DNA of 64,000 bases from an uncultured Desulfuromonas sp. (lineage in GTDB: Bacteria > Desulfobacterota > Desulfuromonadia > Desulfuromonadales > Desulfuromonadaceae). The stretch covers positions 2,356,001 through 2,420,000 of the forward strand of contig NZ_OY787469.1 in NCBI RefSeq assembly GCF_963678835.1, given 5' to 3'. The notes under the pieces are model-generated. The model was given only the letters and a program-made list of their open reading frames with translations. It was not told the DNA's origin and did not search any database. The position numbers were made by a program, and so were the translations under genes. Shown here one piece after another: positions 1 to 11,849 of the stretch. How positions within the stretch are numbered: the stretch's first letter is position 1; each line of letters opens with the position of its first letter.

Positions 1-354
1 GCCATCAATGAGCAACTGGATATTCTTTATGAATATGTTCAGGCCGAATTGGCCTGCCGGTTTCCTGAGCAGCTATGGCGTACCCTGTATCGCGGTATTA
101 ATGATTTTGAAGAACATCAGATTGTTGAACAACAGTCGAAACGACGTTACCTGATACAATTGAACAACCTCAACTCTTTTACGACGGATTTTGAACGTGC
201 CTGGGAATTCGGCAGCCGGGTTATGGTGGCCAAAGTTCCTTTGTGTAAAGTCCTTTTCCAAAGTGATATGTTTCCGTCCTCCCTGCTCAAGGGCGAGGAC
301 GAAGTGATGGTCATTGGTGGCCAGTTTGAAGTGGAGATCCAAATCGGTGGATAA
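1..354 (+). CDS. draT: NAD+--dinitrogen-reductase ADP-D-ribosyltransferase (DraT), C-terminal part
   Basis: The reading frame is open from the left edge, so only the last 117 residues are present. DraT transfers ADP-ribose from NAD+ to an arginine of the nitrogenase iron protein NifH and so switches nitrogenase off when ammonium or darkness/energy limitation is sensed. Family-type segments are visible: LYRGINDFEEHQIV, NNLNSFTTDFERAWEFG, PLCKVLFQSDMFP and KGEDEVMVIGGQFEVEI near the C-terminus. The match to DraT is from recognition of these blocks, not from a search. The target nifH and the reversing enzyme draG are both downstream. The stop codon overlaps the start of the next gene, a histidine kinase, suggesting co-translation. 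Confidence 0.88.
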   Translation, partial: AINEQLDILYEYVQAELACRFPEQLWRTLYRGINDFEEHQIVEQQSKRRYLIQLNNLNSFTTDFERAWEFGSRVMVAKVPLCKVLFQSDMFPSSLLKGEDEVMVIGGQFEVEIQIGG

Positions 355-1945
355 CTGTTCGAAACAGACAACGCAAAAAGAGAACTCTCAAGAACAGAAA
401 CTTCTTCGCGCTTACCATGCCATTGGCGATGAACTGATTTCCCTGACATCTCTTCCTGAGCTGCTCAATAAAATTCTTGAGATTTCCAAGAATGTTTTTC
501 AATTCGAAAATGCCATCATGCGTCTGGTGTCTGATGATGGTACCGAATTGGTCCTGGCCGCCTCATACGGCTATCCTGACCCGGCATTAAAACGCAAGCT
601 GCAGATGGGCGAGGGAATTATGGGCCGTGTTGCCGCCAGTGCTGCTCCGGTGTTGATCGATAATGTGACGCAGGACCATGACTATATCCCCGGTATTCCT
701 GATGCGCGCAGTGCCTTGTGTGTCCCGTTAGTTGCCCGTGACCGGGTGATCGGTGTGTTTAATGTTGAAAGCCATCAGGAGAGTTCATTTCACTCCGGCG
801 ATGTTGCGCCGCTGATGACCATGGCGGCCCAGGCGGCCATCGCCATTGAAAATGCGCGCCTCTATGAACGCACCAGCCAGTTGACGGAACGTTTTCGTCA
901 ACTCCATCAATTCAATGATCGCATTTTGCAAAGCACCACGTTAGGGATTTACACCCTTGATGCCAATCTGTGTATCACGTCGTGGAACAAGCGCATGGAA
1001 AAAGCCAGTGGCATGACGGAGAATCAGGTTCTTGGTCGCCCTTTGTTAACGCTGTTCCCTGTGCTCGCCGAAGAGGGCTTTGATGACCGGCTTAACCGGG
1101 TGTTGAAAACCGGCAAGCCGGAGAAGTTGCAACTGATTCATTACAATCTTCAGGGGCAGCGCCGTGTTCAGAAGCGACGTCTTAGTCCATTAAAAGACGG
1201 TGATGTGACCACCGGCGTGGTGATTGTTGTCGAAGACATTACTGAGTTCAAGGGGTTGCTCGACCAGATGATCCAATCTGAAAAACTTGCAGAGATTGGT
1301 CGGCTGTCCAGTGGGGTTGCTCATGAAATCAATAATCCGCTGGAAGTGATCTCCTACAGTGCGCAACTGTTGCTGCGTGAAGAGAGCCTGTCCGATTTTC
1401 ATCAAGAGCTTTTGACCCGTATCGGCAGTGAGGTGGAGCGTCTTCAGGCTTTGACCAGTGGTCTGCTTGGTTTTTCCCGTAGCGGCAGCATGAAAAAATC
1501 GCGCATTGATGTCAATGAGGTTCTGGAACAGGTTCTGACCTTTATTGGCTACCAGATTCAGCGCGGACAGCATGAGGTGGTGCGGAACTTCGGTGAGGTG
1601 CCGGCGATTATGGCGGATCCCAATCAGCTCAAACAGGTGTATATCAATCTGATTATGAATGCGGTTCAGGCCATGAAGACACCGGGAACCATTACTTTAA
1701 CAACGCGGGCATTGGCTTACGGCGTAGAAATTGATATTGCCGACACCGGTGATGGGGTAGAAGAAGAGCTTCGTGACAAGATTTTCGAACCCTTTTACAC
1801 CACTAAACCGGAAGGTGAGGGCACCGGTCTGGGACTTTATCTGTGCCGCAAGATCATGTCGGACCACGAAGGCTCACTCAATTTTGAATCAACTCGTGGC
1901 GAAGGCAGTCGCTTCATTCTCCGTCTGCCATTGAGGACTCGATAA
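347..1945 (+). CDS. GAF-PAS sensor histidine kinase, translationally coupled to draT
   Basis: A soluble sensor kinase of 532 residues; no membrane segment is seen. Domain order: a GAF domain at about residues 20-170, a PAS domain at about 185-300, a HisKA dimerisation/phosphoacceptor domain with the phosphorylatable His near residue 326 (SGVAHEINNPLEVI), and a HATPase_c domain at about 425-530 with N box (NLIMNAVQAM), DTGDGV and GTGLGLYL. The GTG start at 347 is preferred because GGAG lies about 10 nt upstream; it overlaps the draT stop by 8 nt. An in-frame TTG at 314 lies deeper inside draT and is less likely. No response regulator is adjacent. Its place between draT and glnK suggests a nitrogen or redox role, but that is inference. 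Confidence 0.85.
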   Translation: MDNCSKQTTQKENSQEQKLLRAYHAIGDELISLTSLPELLNKILEISKNVFQFENAIMRLVSDDGTELVLAASYGYPDPALKRKLQMGEGIMGRVAASAAPVLIDNVTQDHDYIPGIPDARSALCVPLVARDRVIGVFNVESHQESSFHSGDVAPLMTMAAQAAIAIENARLYERTSQLTERFRQLHQFNDRILQSTTLGIYTLDANLCITSWNKRMEKASGMTENQVLGRPLLTLFPVLAEEGFDDRLNRVLKTGKPEKLQLIHYNLQGQRRVQKRRLSPLKDGDVTTGVVIVVEDITEFKGLLDQMIQSEKLAEIGRLSSGVAHEINNPLEVISYSAQLLLREESLSDFHQELLTRIGSEVERLQALTSGLLGFSRSGSMKKSRIDVNEVLEQVLTFIGYQIQRGQHEVVRNFGEVPAIMADPNQLKQVYINLIMNAVQAMKTPGTITLTTRALAYGVEIDIADTGDGVEEELRDKIFEPFYTTKPEGEGTGLGLYLCRKIMSDHEGSLNFESTRGEGSRFILRLPLRTR

Positions 1946-2072: not shown

Positions 2073-2088
2073 TGGCACACCCCGTGCA
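2073..2088 (+). promoter_or_regulatory. sigma-54 promoter for glnK-amtB
   Basis: TGGCACACCCCGTGCA matches the -24/-12 consensus (TGGCAC-N5-TTGC) with GG and GC exactly 12 nt apart and one change at the -12 TTGC. Transcription would begin near 2099, leaving a leader of about 240 nt before glnK. No TGT-N10-ACA NifA box was seen between the histidine-kinase stop and this site, so another enhancer-binding protein is probably used. Confidence 0.8.
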
Positions 2089-2201: not shown

Positions 2202-2675
<474 letters not shown>

Positions 2676-2712
2676 TCCCAACCGATAATTTAAAGAAACA
2701 GGAGAACGTGAA

Positions 2713-4026
2713 ATGAAGAAGTTGAAATTACTTACTCTGGTGGCTCTGCTTGTCGCACTCCCTTCTCTAGCTCTGGCCGAAGAAGAAGCCGTCTCGGAAA
2801 TGACTTATATCCTGAACACCTTTTCTTTCCTGATCAGCGGTGTTCTGGTTATGTGGATGGCCGCCGGTTTCGCCATGCTCGAAGCCGGTCTGGTTCGTTC
2901 CAAAAACGTTGCAACGATCTGTTTGAAAAACATTGCCCTGTTCGGCATTGCCGGCATTCTGTTTTACCTGATTGGTTACAACCTGATGTACATGAATGTT
3001 GACGGTGGTTTCATGGGGTCCTTTGCTGTCTGGGGAGCTGATGATGCCGCTGCTCTGGCTGGTGATTACTCGGCCGGTTACTCTGCCGGTTCCGACTGGT
3101 TCTTTCAGATGGTCTTCTGCGGTGCGGCTTGCTCCGTTGTCTCCGGTTGTGTTGCCGAGCGTATCAAGCTGTGGTCCTTCCTGATCTTCTGCGTCGTTCT
3201 GACCGGTATTATTTATCCGATCCAGGGGTCCTGGGGCTGGGGCGGCGGTTGGCTGTCTGCCATGGGTTTCTCTGATTATGCCGGTTCCACTCTGGTTCAC
3301 TCCTGCGGTGGGTGGGCTGCTCTGACCGGTGCCATTATTCTCGGTGCCCGTAAAGGCAAGTACAGCAAGGACGGTCGTGTTAATCCGATCCCCGGTTCCA
3401 ATATCCCCATGGCCACCATCGGTACTTTTATCCTGTGGATGGGTTGGTTCGGTTTCAACGGCGGTAGTGCTCTGGCTCTGGGCGTTGCCAGCTCCGCTAT
3501 CGAGCAAGGCGGTGTTTATATCAATACCAACCTGGCTGCCTGCGGTGGCATGATCGCTGCGATGATCGCTGTTCAAATTATGTACAAAAAGACAGACGTT
3601 ACCATGGCTCTTAACGGTGCTCTGGCTGGTCTGGTCAGTATCACTGCTGGTCCTGCAGCTCCCAGCCCGGGGGCAGCGATTTTGATCGGTGCTGTTGGTG
3701 GTGTTCTGGTGGTTCTGGCTGTTCCTTTCTTTGACAAGCTGAAAATCGATGACGTTGTTGGTGCCCTGTCAGTCCACTTGGTGTGCGGCATCTGGGGAAC
3801 CCTGGCTGTACCTTTCTGCGATGATGGCACCAGCTTTATGACGCAGCTGATCGGTGTTGTCTCCATCGGCGCCTTTGTGGTTGTGACAAGCTCCATCGTT
3901 TGGTTGGCCATCAAGTTCACCATTGGTGTTCGTTGTGATGAAGAAGACGAGTACCGTGGTCTGGATATTGCTGAAATCGGTGTTGAAGCGTATCCCGACT
4001 TCCAAGCGATTACCAACAAGCGTTAA
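2713..4026 (+). CDS. amtB: ammonium transporter AmtB
   Basis: A 437-residue inner-membrane ammonium channel. A cleavable signal peptide (residues 1 to about 22, ending ALAEEEA) is followed by eleven predicted membrane segments. The conserved twin pore histidines are visible as His196 (STLVHSCGGWAAL) and His355 (ALSVHLVCGIWGT), and the C-terminal tail has DEEDEYRGLDIAEIGVEAY, the conserved regulatory tail contacted by GlnK. GGAG lies 9 nt upstream of the ATG. It is co-transcribed with glnK. With draG two genes downstream the layout fits the known ammonium switch-off pathway in which AmtB-bound PII sequesters DraG at the membrane; that role here is inferred. Confidence 0.95.
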   Translation: MKKLKLLTLVALLVALPSLALAEEEAVSEMTYILNTFSFLISGVLVMWMAAGFAMLEAGLVRSKNVATICLKNIALFGIAGILFYLIGYNLMYMNVDGGFMGSFAVWGADDAAALAGDYSAGYSAGSDWFFQMVFCGAACSVVSGCVAERIKLWSFLIFCVVLTGIIYPIQGSWGWGGGWLSAMGFSDYAGSTLVHSCGGWAALTGAIILGARKGKYSKDGRVNPIPGSNIPMATIGTFILWMGWFGFNGGSALALGVASSAIEQGGVYINTNLAACGGMIAAMIAVQIMYKKTDVTMALNGALAGLVSITAGPAAPSPGAAILIGAVGGVLVVLAVPFFDKLKIDDVVGALSVHLVCGIWGTLAVPFCDDGTSFMTQLIGVVSIGAFVVVTSSIVWLAIKFTIGVRCDEEDEYRGLDIAEIGVEAYPDFQAITNKR

Positions 4027-4996: not shown

Positions 4997-5896
4997 GTGT
5001 CACTTACGACACAACATATCGAACGAGCACAAGCGGCATTTGTCGGTTTAGCGGTTGGTGATGCACTTGGGGCAACCACGGAATTCATGACCCCCAACGA
5101 GATCAGGGCCAGACATGGAATCCATCGGACTTTGAGCGGTGGGGGATGGCTGAACCTTAAGCCCGGCCATGTTACTGATGATACTGAGATGTCCATGGCA
5201 ATTGCCAATGCTGTCCTGGCGCATGGTGAGTGGAACCAGAAGGAGATTGCTGACGCTTTTGTCGCCTGGATGAAAAGCAAGCCCATTGATATCGGATCGA
5301 CTGTACGCAAGGGGATCCGCACTTATATGACCAAAGGCACATTGGGCATGCCACGTAATGACTGGGATGCCGGCAATGGTGCGGCCATGCGCATGGTTCC
5401 CGTTGCCATTTACACCCTTGGCGATAAAGAGTTGTACAAGCACTGTACGCTCGAACAGGCACATCTTACGCACAACCACCCTTTGTCGGATGCTGGAACA
5501 TTGTGTGTGGGAGAGATGGTTCAGGCCGCCATCCTCGGCGCGGATCGCTTTCAGTTGCATGAATGTACCCGTCGCTTGACCGATGAGTTCCCGAACTTCA
5601 AGTTTCAGAACTATCGTGGCAATGCCTCTGGTTATATTGTCGACACGCTGCAGACGGTTTTTCACTATCTGTTCACCACCGCCTCCTTTGAAGAGTGTCT
5701 GGTTGGAATCGTCAACCAAGGTGGTGATGCGGATACCACCGGCGCCATTGCCGGTATGATCGCCGGTGCGTTTTATGGCATGGATGCGATTCCACGCCAA
5801 TGGAAGAATAAATTAAATAAGCAGGTGCGTCATGAAGTGACTGCTGCGGGGGAGAGCTTGATTCGATTGTCACCTCTGGCGACTCGGCCGCAGTGA
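4997..5896 (+). CDS. draG: ADP-ribosyl-[dinitrogen reductase] hydrolase (DraG)
   Basis: A 299-residue ADP-ribosylglycohydrolase that removes ADP-ribose from the NifH arginine and so reactivates nitrogenase. The binuclear-metal acidic motifs are seen: HVTDDTEMSMAIA near residue 55 and NQGGDADTTGAIAGMIAG near residue 245. It starts RAQAAFVGLAVGDALGATTEF as in the family. The GTG at 4997 is favoured by GGGAGG (4987-4992) directly upstream; an in-frame TTG 30 nt earlier lies inside a hairpin. It is downstream of glnK-amtB rather than next to draT, which places the hydrolase with the ammonium sensor. It is followed closely by two small genes and a macro-domain gene. Confidence 0.93.
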   Translation: MSLTTQHIERAQAAFVGLAVGDALGATTEFMTPNEIRARHGIHRTLSGGGWLNLKPGHVTDDTEMSMAIANAVLAHGEWNQKEIADAFVAWMKSKPIDIGSTVRKGIRTYMTKGTLGMPRNDWDAGNGAAMRMVPVAIYTLGDKELYKHCTLEQAHLTHNHPLSDAGTLCVGEMVQAAILGADRFQLHECTRRLTDEFPNFKFQNYRGNASGYIVDTLQTVFHYLFTTASFEECLVGIVNQGGDADTTGAIAGMIAGAFYGMDAIPRQWKNKLNKQVRHEVTAAGESLIRLSPLATRPQ

Positions 5897-7575: not shown

Positions 7576-7591
7576 TGGCACACCGTCTGCA
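7576..7591 (+). promoter_or_regulatory. sigma-54 promoter for nifHDK
   Basis: TGGCACACCGTCTGCA carries the -24 TGGCAC and -12 CTGC elements with GG and GC 12 nt apart. The predicted start is near 7603, giving a leader of about 250 nt before nifH. The stretch 7433-7575 is AT-rich and shows no TGT-N10-ACA NifA site. Confidence 0.82.
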
Positions 7592-7622
7592 TTAAGAGAC
7601 GTAACACAAAACAATAATGGAT

Positions 7623-7664
7623 GCGGAAACAGAGTGGTTTTCCGCTTTTGATGGCAACGGAGCC
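7623..7664 (+). promoter_or_regulatory. ANTAR-type antitermination RNA motif in the nifH leader
   Basis: Hairpin P1: arms GCGGAAAC (7623-7630) and GTTTTCCGC (7637-7645, one bulged T) around hexaloop AGAGTG. Hairpin P2: arms GGC (7653-7655) and GCC (7662-7664) around hexaloop AACGGA, with outer TG/CA pairing. Both loops have A1 and G4. The 3' arm of P2 is the first part of the terminator stem that begins at 7662. The same design occurs in the glnK leader, though sequences differ, so the structure rather than sequence is conserved. Confidence 0.75.
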
Positions 7665-7711
7665 TGCAGCAGATTTTTCTTTTTGAGAATTTTGTTGCAG
7701 GCTTTTTATTT
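7662..7711 (+). terminator. leader terminator before nifH (attenuator)
   Basis: GCCTGCAGCA (7662-7671) pairs with TGTTGCAGGC (7693-7702, one wobble) and is followed by TTTTTATTT. It lies about 60 nt after the predicted transcription start and 145 nt before nifH, so it must be read through for nifHDK expression. Confidence 0.82.
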
Positions 7712-7766
7712 GCCGTCACAAAACAGAATTAGGCGACACAAGGTTGCTGTCGCGCAGGGTAACGGG

Positions 7767-7807
7767 GCCCCATCTGAATCGGATCAGGTGGGGCTTCACA
7801 TTTTTTT
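7767..7807 (+). promoter_or_regulatory. second structured element in the nifH leader, hexaloop hairpin plus T-tract
   Basis: GCCCCATCTGA (7767-7777) pairs over 11 bp with TCAGGTGGGGC (7784-7794) around loop ATCGGA, again A1 and G4. A run of seven T follows 6 nt later (7801-7807). It may be a second attenuator, a further ANTAR-like site or a transcript-stabilising hairpin; the sequence alone does not decide. Confidence 0.5.
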
Positions 7808-7843
7808 AAGATTGGTCCTGGCTCACGGTCGGACCGAAAATGA

Positions 7844-8734
<891 letters not shown>

Positions 8735-8864: not shown

Positions 8865-10307
8865 ATGGCAGAGAGAAAACCTATTGAAGGTGTAACCATA
8901 GAAAAAACTGAGAAGCTGATTGAGGATACTCTGGCGTTTATGCCTGAGAAAGCGGCCAAGAAGCGTCGCCCTCACGTTGGCGCCAATGAGCCTTCCGCTT
9001 CTCCCTGTGCGGTTAAATCAAACCGTAAAATCGTTCCCGGTGTTATGAGCCAACGCGGCTGTGCTTACGCCGGTGCCAAGGGTGTTGTTTGGGGTCCGAT
9101 TCGTGACATGGTTCACGTTTCCCACGGCCCGATTGGTTGTGGTGTGTACAGCTGGGGTACGCGTCGTAACCTGGTTCAAGGCATTCCCGGTATCACATCG
9201 TTCCCTCTGGACTTCACTTCCGACTTCCAGGAGCGTGACATTGTTTACGGTGGTGATATCAAACTGGAAAAACTGCTGCGTGAAGCGGATGAACTGTTCC
9301 CGCTGAACAAAGGTTTGTCGGTATTGTCCGAGTGCCCGGTAGGTCTGATTGGTGACGACATCAATGCCGTTACCAAAAAGATGGAAAAAGAACTCGATAA
9401 ACTGGTTGTTCCCTGTAACTGTGAAGGTTTCCGTGGCGTCAGTCAGTCGCTGGGTCATCACATCTCCAACGATTCCATCCGTGACTTTGTTATCGGCAAG
9501 CGTGAGTTTGATGAAGAGCCGGGTCCCTACGATATCGCCCTGATCGGTGACTACAATATCGGTGGTGACGTCTGGGCGGCCAAGCCGATTCTCGAAGAGA
9601 TGGGCTTGAACGTAAAAGCGATCTGGACCGGTGACGGTGAGATTGAAAAGATTGCAGCCACCTACCAGGTAAAACTGAATGTTATCCACTGTTACCGTTC
9701 CATGAACTACATGTGTAAGGTTATGGAAGAGAAGTGGAATATTCCCTGGATCGAGTATAACTTTTTCGGCCCGACTAAAATTGCTGAAAGTATCCGCGCG
9801 ATTGCTGAACGCTTTGACGACACCATCAAGGAAAAAGGCGAGCAGGTTATCGCTAAGTATACCCCGATGGCCGAGGAGATCATCGCTCAATACAAACCTC
9901 GCCTCGATGGCAAAACCGCCATGCTGTTTGTCGGTGGTCTGCGTCCCCGCCACACCGTTGGTGCTTACGAAGACTTAGGTATTCAGGTGACTGGTACCGG
10001 TTACGAGTTTGCTCACCAGGACGATTATGATCGTACTGCTCCTGAAATGGCTAAAGGCACCATCATTTATGACGACGTCTCCGAATTCGAATTGGAGAGA
10101 TACGTTGAAACCATGAAACCTGACCTGGTTGGTAGTGGCATCAAGGAAAAGTATGTCTTCCAAAAAGCCGGCATTCCTTTCCGCCAGATGCACAGCTGGG
10201 ATTACTCCGGTCCTTATCACGGCTATGAAGGTTTCAAAATCTTTGCCCGCGATATTGACATGGCGATCAACAGCCCGACCTGGAAACTGGTGAAATCTCC
10301 TTTTTAG
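8865..10307 (+). CDS. nifD: nitrogenase molybdenum-iron protein alpha chain NifD
   Basis: A 480-residue alpha subunit of Mo-nitrogenase, which holds FeMo-cofactor and shares the P-cluster with NifK. P-cluster cysteines lie in [19 protein letters not shown] and [11 protein letters not shown]; cofactor ligands are the Cys in [11 protein letters not shown] and the His in [15 protein letters not shown]. The presence of both cofactor ligands and the length mark the Mo form rather than VnfD or AnfD. ATG 8865 follows AAGGAGA by 8 nt. It is in an operon with nifH upstream and nifK 81 nt downstream. Confidence 0.97.
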
Positions 10308-10388
10308 GCTCTGTTGAACAACATAACGACGTATTAACCCAATTAGCCATGACCTTTGTCACGGTTGGATGACAGGGAGATAAAGACA

Positions 10389-11849
10389 ATGACTGAAAAT
10401 GCAGTTAGAAAAATAACAACTCACACCCCAGAAGAGATCGAGCGGGTGGCCGAGTGGACCAAAACAGAAGAATACAAAGAGAAAAACTTTGCCCGTGAAG
10501 CGCTGGTTGTTAACCCGGCTCACGCCTGCCAGCCTCTCGGCGCTCAAATGGTTGCCAGCGGTTTCGCAGAAACCCTGCCGTTTGTTCACGGTTCTCAGGG
10601 GTGCGCTTCTTACTTCCGCAGCACCTTCAACCGTCACTTCCGTGAGCCTTCTGCGGCCACCTGTGATGCGATGACTGAGGACGGCGCGGTTTTCGGTGGC
10701 CAGAATAACCTGTTTGAAGGTCTGGAAAACGCCTACACTCTGTATAAGCCGAAAATGATGGCGGTTTATACCACCTGTATGCCTGAAGTTATCGGTGATG
10801 ACCTGACAGCATTTATTAAAAATGCCAAAACAGCAGGACATGTTCCTGAGGAGCTGCCGATCCCTTATGCCAATACGCCGAGCTTCAACGGTACGCATCT
10901 GCACGGTTTTGACGCCATGCTCAAGGGTATTCTTGAGTACCTGACCAAGGATCAAAAGGTTGAAGACAAGTGTACCGGCAAGCTGAATCTGATCCCCGGT
11001 TTCGAAGGCAATATCGGCAACCTGCGTGAGTATCAACGTATTCTCGATTTGTTCGGTATCCCGTTTGTCATGATGCCGGATATTTCCGAAGTGTTTGACT
11101 CCGGTTGTGACGGAAATTACAAGCTGTATCCCGGTGGTACTTCCTTGGAAGAGGCTGCTGAATCCATCAACGGCAAAGTAACCATGTCCTTGCAAAAGTG
11201 GACCACGCCGCAAACCATGCGCTTTGTTAAATCGGAATTCTCCGGTGTGCATGAAGTGATGTCGATGCCGATGGGCATTGAAAAAACCGACGCATTGTTG
11301 ATGAAACTCAGCGAGTTGTTCGACAAGCCGATCCCTGAGCAGCTGAAAAAAGAGCGTGCTCGTGCTGTTGATGCCATGACGGACGGCCATCAGTACATCC
11401 ACGGCAAGAAGTTCGCTGTTTACGGCGATCCTGACTACCTGCTGGGTATTGTCTCCTTCCTGCTCGAGATGGGAGCGCATCCGCATCACATTGTCTGCTC
11501 TCGCAGCAACAAGAAGTTCAAGAAGGAGATGGAAGCACTTCTAGAAACGTCTGAGTACGGTGCGGGTTGCACCGTTTATGTGAATCGCGACCTGTGGCAT
11601 CTGCGCAGCTTGATTTTTACCGATCCTGTTGATGGGATTATCGGCGACACCCACGGTAAGTTTGTGGCTCGTGACACAGGGCTGCCCCTGTTCCGCGTCG
11701 GTTTCCCGATCATCGACCGTATCAACCTGCACCGCAGTCCTATTGTCGGTTACCAGGGCGTCATTAACCTGATGTCCATGATTTGTAACAAATTCCTCGA
11801 CATTAAAGACGAGACTTGTGAAGACCAGTGGTTTGAGATGATGCGTTAA
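10389..11849 (+). CDS. nifK: nitrogenase molybdenum-iron protein beta chain NifK
   Basis: A 486-residue beta subunit, shorter than the about 520 residues of the Azotobacter protein, mostly at the N-terminus, as in many anaerobes. P-cluster cysteines lie in NPAHACQPLGA, HGSQGCASYFRS and TTCMPEVIGDD. The ATG at 10389 is chosen because GGGAG lies 10 nt upstream and MTENAVRKITTHTPEEI is a normal NifK N-terminus; an in-frame upstream alternative would start in the nifD-nifK spacer. It is followed by a region with three inverted repeats before nifX. Confidence 0.96.
   Translation: MTENAVRKITTHTPEEIERVAEWTKTEEYKEKNFAREALVVNPAHACQPLGAQMVASGFAETLPFVHGSQGCASYFRSTFNRHFREPSAATCDAMTEDGAVFGGQNNLFEGLENAYTLYKPKMMAVYTTCMPEVIGDDLTAFIKNAKTAGHVPEELPIPYANTPSFNGTHLHGFDAMLKGILEYLTKDQKVEDKCTGKLNLIPGFEGNIGNLREYQRILDLFGIPFVMMPDISEVFDSGCDGNYKLYPGGTSLEEAAESINGKVTMSLQKWTTPQTMRFVKSEFSGVHEVMSMPMGIEKTDALLMKLSELFDKPIPEQLKKERARAVDAMTDGHQYIHGKKFAVYGDPDYLLGIVSFLLEMGAHPHHIVCSRSNKKFKKEMEALLETSEYGAGCTVYVNRDLWHLRSLIFTDPVDGIIGDTHGKFVARDTGLPLFRVGFPIIDRINLHRSPIVGYQGVINLMSMICNKFLDIKDETCEDQWFEMMR

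Follow-up and report, generated by a model that had tools for sequence, protein, structure and literature searches.

The nifH leader of an uncultured Desulfuromonas is very probably a two-step ANTAR transcription-attenuation switch

Control of nitrogen fixation (nif) genes is usually presented as control of transcription initiation by sigma-54 together with NifA-type activators. For Geobacter sulfurreducens, Ueki and Lovley reportedly described in 2010 a two-component system, GnfK/GnfR, whose RNA-binding response regulator acts in nif antitermination, and the nif genes under its control are said to have sigma-54-type promoters followed by terminators. In the portions of the literature cited here, gnfK (GSU0941) is given as a sensor kinase and gnfR (GSU2822) as a response regulator of nitrogen fixation (PMC7962754), and Geobacter is named as one of the bacteria whose nitrogen use is under ANTAR control (PMC8164766). 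Judged by these locus numbers, the two genes lie far apart in Geobacter, whereas regulator, draT and kinase are found together in the genome described below. EutV/EutW of Enterococcus faecalis, as described in the cited text, resembles the present system in its receiver-ANTAR regulator, its RNA-contact residues (seven of eight) and the overlap of its target with a terminator (PMC8934654). It differs in that ethanolamine genes are controlled and the linkers between hairpins are 5-12 nt long.

According to the cited part of Ramesh 2012, three nitrogenase-related transcription units carry ANTAR sites in Pelobacter carbinolicus, which belongs to the same order as our genome (Desulfuromonadales). 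In Desulfotomaculum acetoxidans, 13 ANTAR systems are spread over six units, and thus several per unit (PMC3369931). Like the RNAs examined here, the targets in that work consist of two short A1/G4 hexaloop hairpins, the second stem of which overlaps an intrinsic terminator. From these nitrogenase-operon sites and the reported GnfK/GnfR work, this kind of switch is therefore already known. A search of the text of open-licence papers (figures and supplements outside its scope) returned no mention of a tandem gate before nifH. The additions made here are a conserved tandem gate, a Cache/CheW gene as a target, and, in 36 of 64 relatives, a third hexaloop that is likewise conserved. The nitrogenase operon of this genome would carry a second, post-initiation layer of control that is doubled and conserved.

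The window is the whole stretch of DNA analysed, 64,000 nucleotides in length. The original prediction took positions 7576 to 7711 as the leader of nifHDK and placed a single double-hairpin there. The features of this module and of the operon are as follows.

7576..7590, forward strand: sigma-54-type (-24/-12) promoter of nifHDK, TGGCACACCGTCTGC, with GG-N10-GC spacing
7623..7645, forward strand: P1 hairpin of module 1, GCGGAAAC[AGAGTG]GTTTTCCGC, loop AGAGUG at 7631-7636; fold -8.9 kcal/mol
7653..7664, forward strand: P2 hairpin of module 1 (antiterminator), GGC[AACGGA]GCC, loop at 7656-7661; -2.8 kcal/mol alone
7662..7707, forward strand: terminator 1, stem 7662-7702 followed by a U run; -27.9 kcal/mol, z -7.09
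7856..8734, forward strand: nifH (TIGR01287, 470.5 bits, above cut-off)
8865..10307, forward strand: nifD (TIGR01282, above cut-off)
10356..11849, forward strand: nifK (TIGR01286, above cut-off)

Both predicted hexaloops, AGAGTG and AACGGA, and the GCC arm of P2 shared with the terminator were found where they had been placed. The interval is sound as a leader from module 1 onward, but its first 15 positions (7576-7590) are a -24/-12 promoter-like site. Sites matching this promoter by regular expression lie at a similar distance 5' of nifH in most of 64 order-level leaders. The P1 stem of module 1 contains one bulged U, and its 7-nt linker to P2 falls inside the range of eut sites (5-12 nt). 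The first GCC of the terminator 1 base (7662-7664) is also the 3' arm of P2. Although P1 is present as drawn in folds of 7611-7700 and 7603-7820, the minimum-energy fold of 7576-7711 has other pairings 5' of the terminator. Forcing P2 to form costs about 9.5 kcal/mol relative to the terminator fold (-38.3 to -28.8), and termination is therefore the expected default, with P2 needing to be held by something.

The double-hairpin proposed before nifH is thus present, but a second complete module at 7733-7807 had been overlooked.

7733..7753, forward strand: P1 hairpin of module 2, one C bulged, loop AAGGUU at 7740-7745; returned by the strict scan and supported by covariation in relatives
7757..7770, forward strand: P2 hairpin of module 2, GGGU[AACGGG]GCCC; -5.3 kcal/mol
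7764..7807, forward strand: terminator 2, stem 7764-7797, U run 7801-7807; -25.4 kcal/mol, z -5.50

Here GCCC (7767-7770) is common to P2 and terminator 2, and a consensus terminator scan reported terminator 2 and not terminator 1. All four loops of the leader (AGAGUG, AACGGA, AAGGUU and AACGGG) have A1 and G4, each on a stem of at least 3 bp. Because module 2 stands behind module 1 with a terminator of its own, two serial gates would precede nifH.

A strict scan of the 64-kb window returned two places on the forward strand and none on the reverse, both between the promoter and nifH. Ten Markov-shuffled strands of the same length gave 0, 1, 0, 0, 0, 1, 2, 0, 0 and 1 places, and the scan was dropped as sole proof since shuffled strands reach two matches. 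The original argument that chance is unlikely therefore draws only a modest excess from the window, and it is the comparison across the order that proves decisive. A NifH search covering 118 genomes from the order identified a close nifH in 65. We compared 64 leaders, each comprising up to 400 bases 5' of nifH and the window included; in the 65th, the contig does not extend upstream of nifH. Three paralogues resembling nifH were omitted from the set, as were five named loci because they possibly duplicate sampled genomes. With a module defined as a loop of six bases, A1 and G4 among them, on a 3-pair stem and with an overlapping terminator, at least one was present in 61 of the 64 leaders (two in 35, one in 26, none in 3; kinship ignored). 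Among 1280 dinucleotide shuffles, one module was present in 8 and two in none.

When the loop rule was dropped, 106 loops were recovered, with A1/G4 in 94, G4 in 104 and A1 in 95, compared with A1/G4 in 9 of 89 loops from shuffles. In a non-redundant count on 69 leaders, 62 of 73 loops have A1, 71 have G4, and position 3 is free. Unselected P1 hairpins give a different picture for A1. A hexaloop hairpin lies near 57 of 136 such anchors, with A1/G4 in 18 and G1/G4 in 21 (25/297 for each combination in shuffles), and loop position 1 is often G in the P1 hairpins of module 1. These counts indicate that G4 is the firm feature and that A1 is not strict in P1. In the EutV-RNA structure, as given in the cited text, G4 is contacted base-specifically and A1 is uncontacted (PMC8934654), in agreement with the firm G4 and looser A1 of P1 in nifH leaders.

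Base pairing was also evaluated by covariation. Module 1 has 94.9% paired cells versus 83.3% when shuffled (30 rows, chosen beforehand to have R1, G4 and no fewer than 4 inner pairs) and module 2 has 93.5% versus 84.5% (23 rows, hand-picked from 35), each above all 500 shuffles, with the percentages inflated because the rows were preselected. Throughout the order, nifH leaders retain this ANTAR design.

The alternative that survives best, although we consider it rather unlikely, is that only one nifH module is ANTAR-responsive in this species, while the other has decayed or serves simply as a terminator. Module 2 departs from the target RNAs in the cited part of Ramesh 2012 in its 3-nt linker and bulged P1. 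This linker is below the eut-site range that works for EutV, and induction by EutV fell strongly when the eutP linker was cut to 3 bases (PMC3369931, in the part cited). The energy model closes an additional A-U pair within the P1 loop, which is accordingly not predicted as an open hexaloop, and in relatives position 1 of this loop is A or C. The 26 leaders with one module by the strict rule also favour a single working gate. However, module 2 is the better conserved of the two within the genus. Its counterparts in relatives have an invariant G at loop position 4 (23 rows) and a linker that is itself kept short (1-3 columns). We retain the reading with two responsive gates.

Much less probable is attenuation by a translated leader peptide or a metabolite-binding RNA without any ANTAR protein. 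An ATG at 7617 does start a 117-codon frame across the nifH leader, but the pattern conserved across the order is, by eye, the overlap of hexaloop and terminator rather than a reading frame. Leader-peptide attenuation at nifH was set aside on this visual judgement of conservation, and a metabolite-binding RNA is disfavoured by a search of the whole window against Rfam, which gave no match above the gathering threshold; that empty result also counts against the ANTAR reading. That the hairpins simply terminate the upstream FKBP-like gene (end 7432) and carry their loop letters by coincidence is scarcely credible, for although intergenic intrinsic terminators are common and the window-only statistics are modest, these hairpins sit 3' of a sigma-54 promoter and G4 is found in 104 of the 106 unselected loops.

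A leader of the same design had also been proposed before glnK-amtB, and it is indeed present.

2073..2087, forward strand: sigma-54-type promoter of glnK-amtB
2211..2226, forward strand: P1 of the glnK-amtB leader, loop AAUGGC; recognised by eye and by folding
2242..2259, forward strand: P2 of the glnK-amtB leader, loop AAAGGC; by eye, fold -6.7 kcal/mol
2251..2306, forward strand: terminator of the glnK-amtB leader, overlapping P2; fold of 2249-2306 -29.4 kcal/mol
2337..4026, forward strand: glnK (P-II, PF00543) and amtB (PF00909, 2713-4026), the start codon at 2337 being our reading

This leader was reported neither by the strict scan nor, among the 150 of 1410 candidates scored, by covariance model R1.

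The original prediction implied one trans-acting regulator for both operons and depended on an ANTAR-domain protein being encoded in the genome. The PF03861 profile finds one such protein (E 3.7e-19) and none in 14 control genomes, and a kinase gene lies two genes on.

G000:C1:2354987-2355553: receiver-ANTAR response regulator, 188 residues (PF00072 and PF03861)
314..1945 of the window, forward strand: GAF-PAS-HisKA-HATPase histidine kinase (Pfam), the likely partner of the response regulator

The ANTAR gene is located 448 bases before the window start, about 8 kb upstream of the nifH leader. Its product has an intact phospho-acceptor (Asp54 in VMDVTMP) and, in a hand-read alignment, keeps seven of the eight RNA-contact residues of EutV (R141, K142, K146, K148, E158, Y162 and M170); the eighth, R168, is replaced by Q166. 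With one ANTAR protein in the genome and a kinase nearby, a single regulator is available to both leaders, as had been proposed. We infer that this protein binds the hairpins, is phosphorylated by the kinase and acts on both operons. An ANTAR protein is encoded in all 65 genomes with nifH versus 31 of the 53 without it (p 1.1e-9, kinship ignored).

Genes in this region are ordered ANTAR regulator, draT, GAF-PAS histidine kinase, glnK, amtB and draG. Among 17 Desulfuromonadales ANTAR loci, 13 have draT next to the regulator gene, and 8 have a kinase (identity 47% or higher) within the retrieved flank, several contigs ending nearby. With draT beside the ANTAR gene and draG near it (G000:C1:2355560 to window position 5893), the genes for nitrogenase ADP-ribosylation travel with the antitermination regulator.

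With high confidence, we read the nifH leader as an ANTAR-type attenuation switch that acts on transcription in two steps and would be relieved by the upstream regulator under nitrogen shortage. The scheme that we infer for binding, phosphorylation, signal, antitermination and cooperation of the two gates is as follows. RNA polymerase would begin at the sigma-54 promoter of nifHDK and, by default, stop at terminator 1 (7662-7707), or at terminator 2 (7764-7807) once terminator 1 had been passed. When fixed nitrogen is scarce, the kinase would phosphorylate the ANTAR response regulator, a dimer of which would bind both hexaloops in each module, that of P1 and that of P2, and hold the short P2 stem. 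A held P2 would keep GCC or GCCC from the terminator base, so that transcription could continue into nifHDK. Two gates in series are expected to give a tighter off state than one, and the same regulator would probably open the glnK-amtB leader and further sites in the genome. If both gates work, their product would explain a tight off state, and the leader would offer a natural two-stage antitermination device to measure.

Further A1/G4 double hairpins before terminators, for which the original prediction suggested a search, are represented in this genome by nifH module 2, a Cache/CheW leader and probably a nifB leader. Scanning the genome for P2 plus terminator gave 18 matches versus 13 with a reversed-pattern control, which indicates that most are due to chance; after inspection, the nifH and Cache/CheW sites were kept. 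Covariance model R1 gave at least five matches at E up to 10 among the 150 of 1410 first-look candidates that were scored. The best of those scored is nifH module 1, itself a training sequence, followed by the leader of the Cache/CheW gene (21 bits, E 0.46). Three more were dropped, as they have no convincing terminator. Among the same 150 candidates, nifH module 2, glnK and nifB were not reported.

L168 1052-3694 (G000:C1 near 3428200), minus strand: gene for an 880-residue Cache and CheW-like protein, with an ANTAR-type leader 5'
L018 19521-19564: ANTAR-type nifB leader in a relative
L016 16367-16414 (minus): ANTAR-type nifB leader in a second relative

By eye, the Cache/CheW leader comprises a sigma-54-like site, both hairpins (P1 and P2) and a terminator. 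Of 14 genomes of the family, 4 were found to have the gene, and in each of these the leader retains A1/G4 loops, P2 and the terminator (by eye), with a mismatch in P1 in one. Upstream of nifB in our genome there are, by eye, hexaloop hairpins and a terminator with unusually wide spacing, and an ANTAR-type leader is probably present there; nifB leaders are clear in the two relatives listed (R1 33.3 and 28.5 bits). No module was seen in the nifE leader of our genome. ANTAR sites thus predict additional targets, including a chemotaxis-like gene.

A second nitrogenase cluster is located at G000:C1:2311076-2317709 (L092, L176), its alpha subunit scoring above the VnfD cut-off (909.7 bits). A scan 5' of the nifH-like gene beside vnfD detected a sigma-54-like site and no ANTAR module.

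In 36 of the 64 order-level nifH leaders (e.g. L140, L141, L154 and L156), the sequence ATC[AANGNN]GATGCCGCC lies within a variable outer stem, about 65-130 bases before the nifH start and 3' of the terminators. It is absent from the nifH leaders of this genus. All 33 non-redundant copies have A1, A2 and G4, and the outer stem scores 16.6 with its own flank versus 13.4 when flanks are swapped (the highest of 200 swaps reached 15.6). No Rfam family was found at gathering in the loci tried. From its sequence, the element looks like a third ANTAR hexaloop without a terminator, and it is perhaps a further ANTAR landing site that acts on translation or mRNA stability.

As a tentative and rather doubtful extension, the order may share a multi-gate ANTAR device in which serial antiterminators (the second with a linker of 1-3 nt) are combined with a third hexaloop landing site (the 36 leaders above) and a Cache/CheW regulon. 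If this is true, the chemotaxis-like Cache/CheW target would extend the regulon beyond nitrogen metabolism and tie nitrogen fixation to behaviour. The nifH leader had no match in a plasmid collection. Another conserved stretch, GCGGGACGGTCYATCCGACGTCCAAGGGTYACGCCGGCAG, which matches no Rfam family at gathering, lies 5' of nifH in four leaders (L110, L136, L137 and L151).
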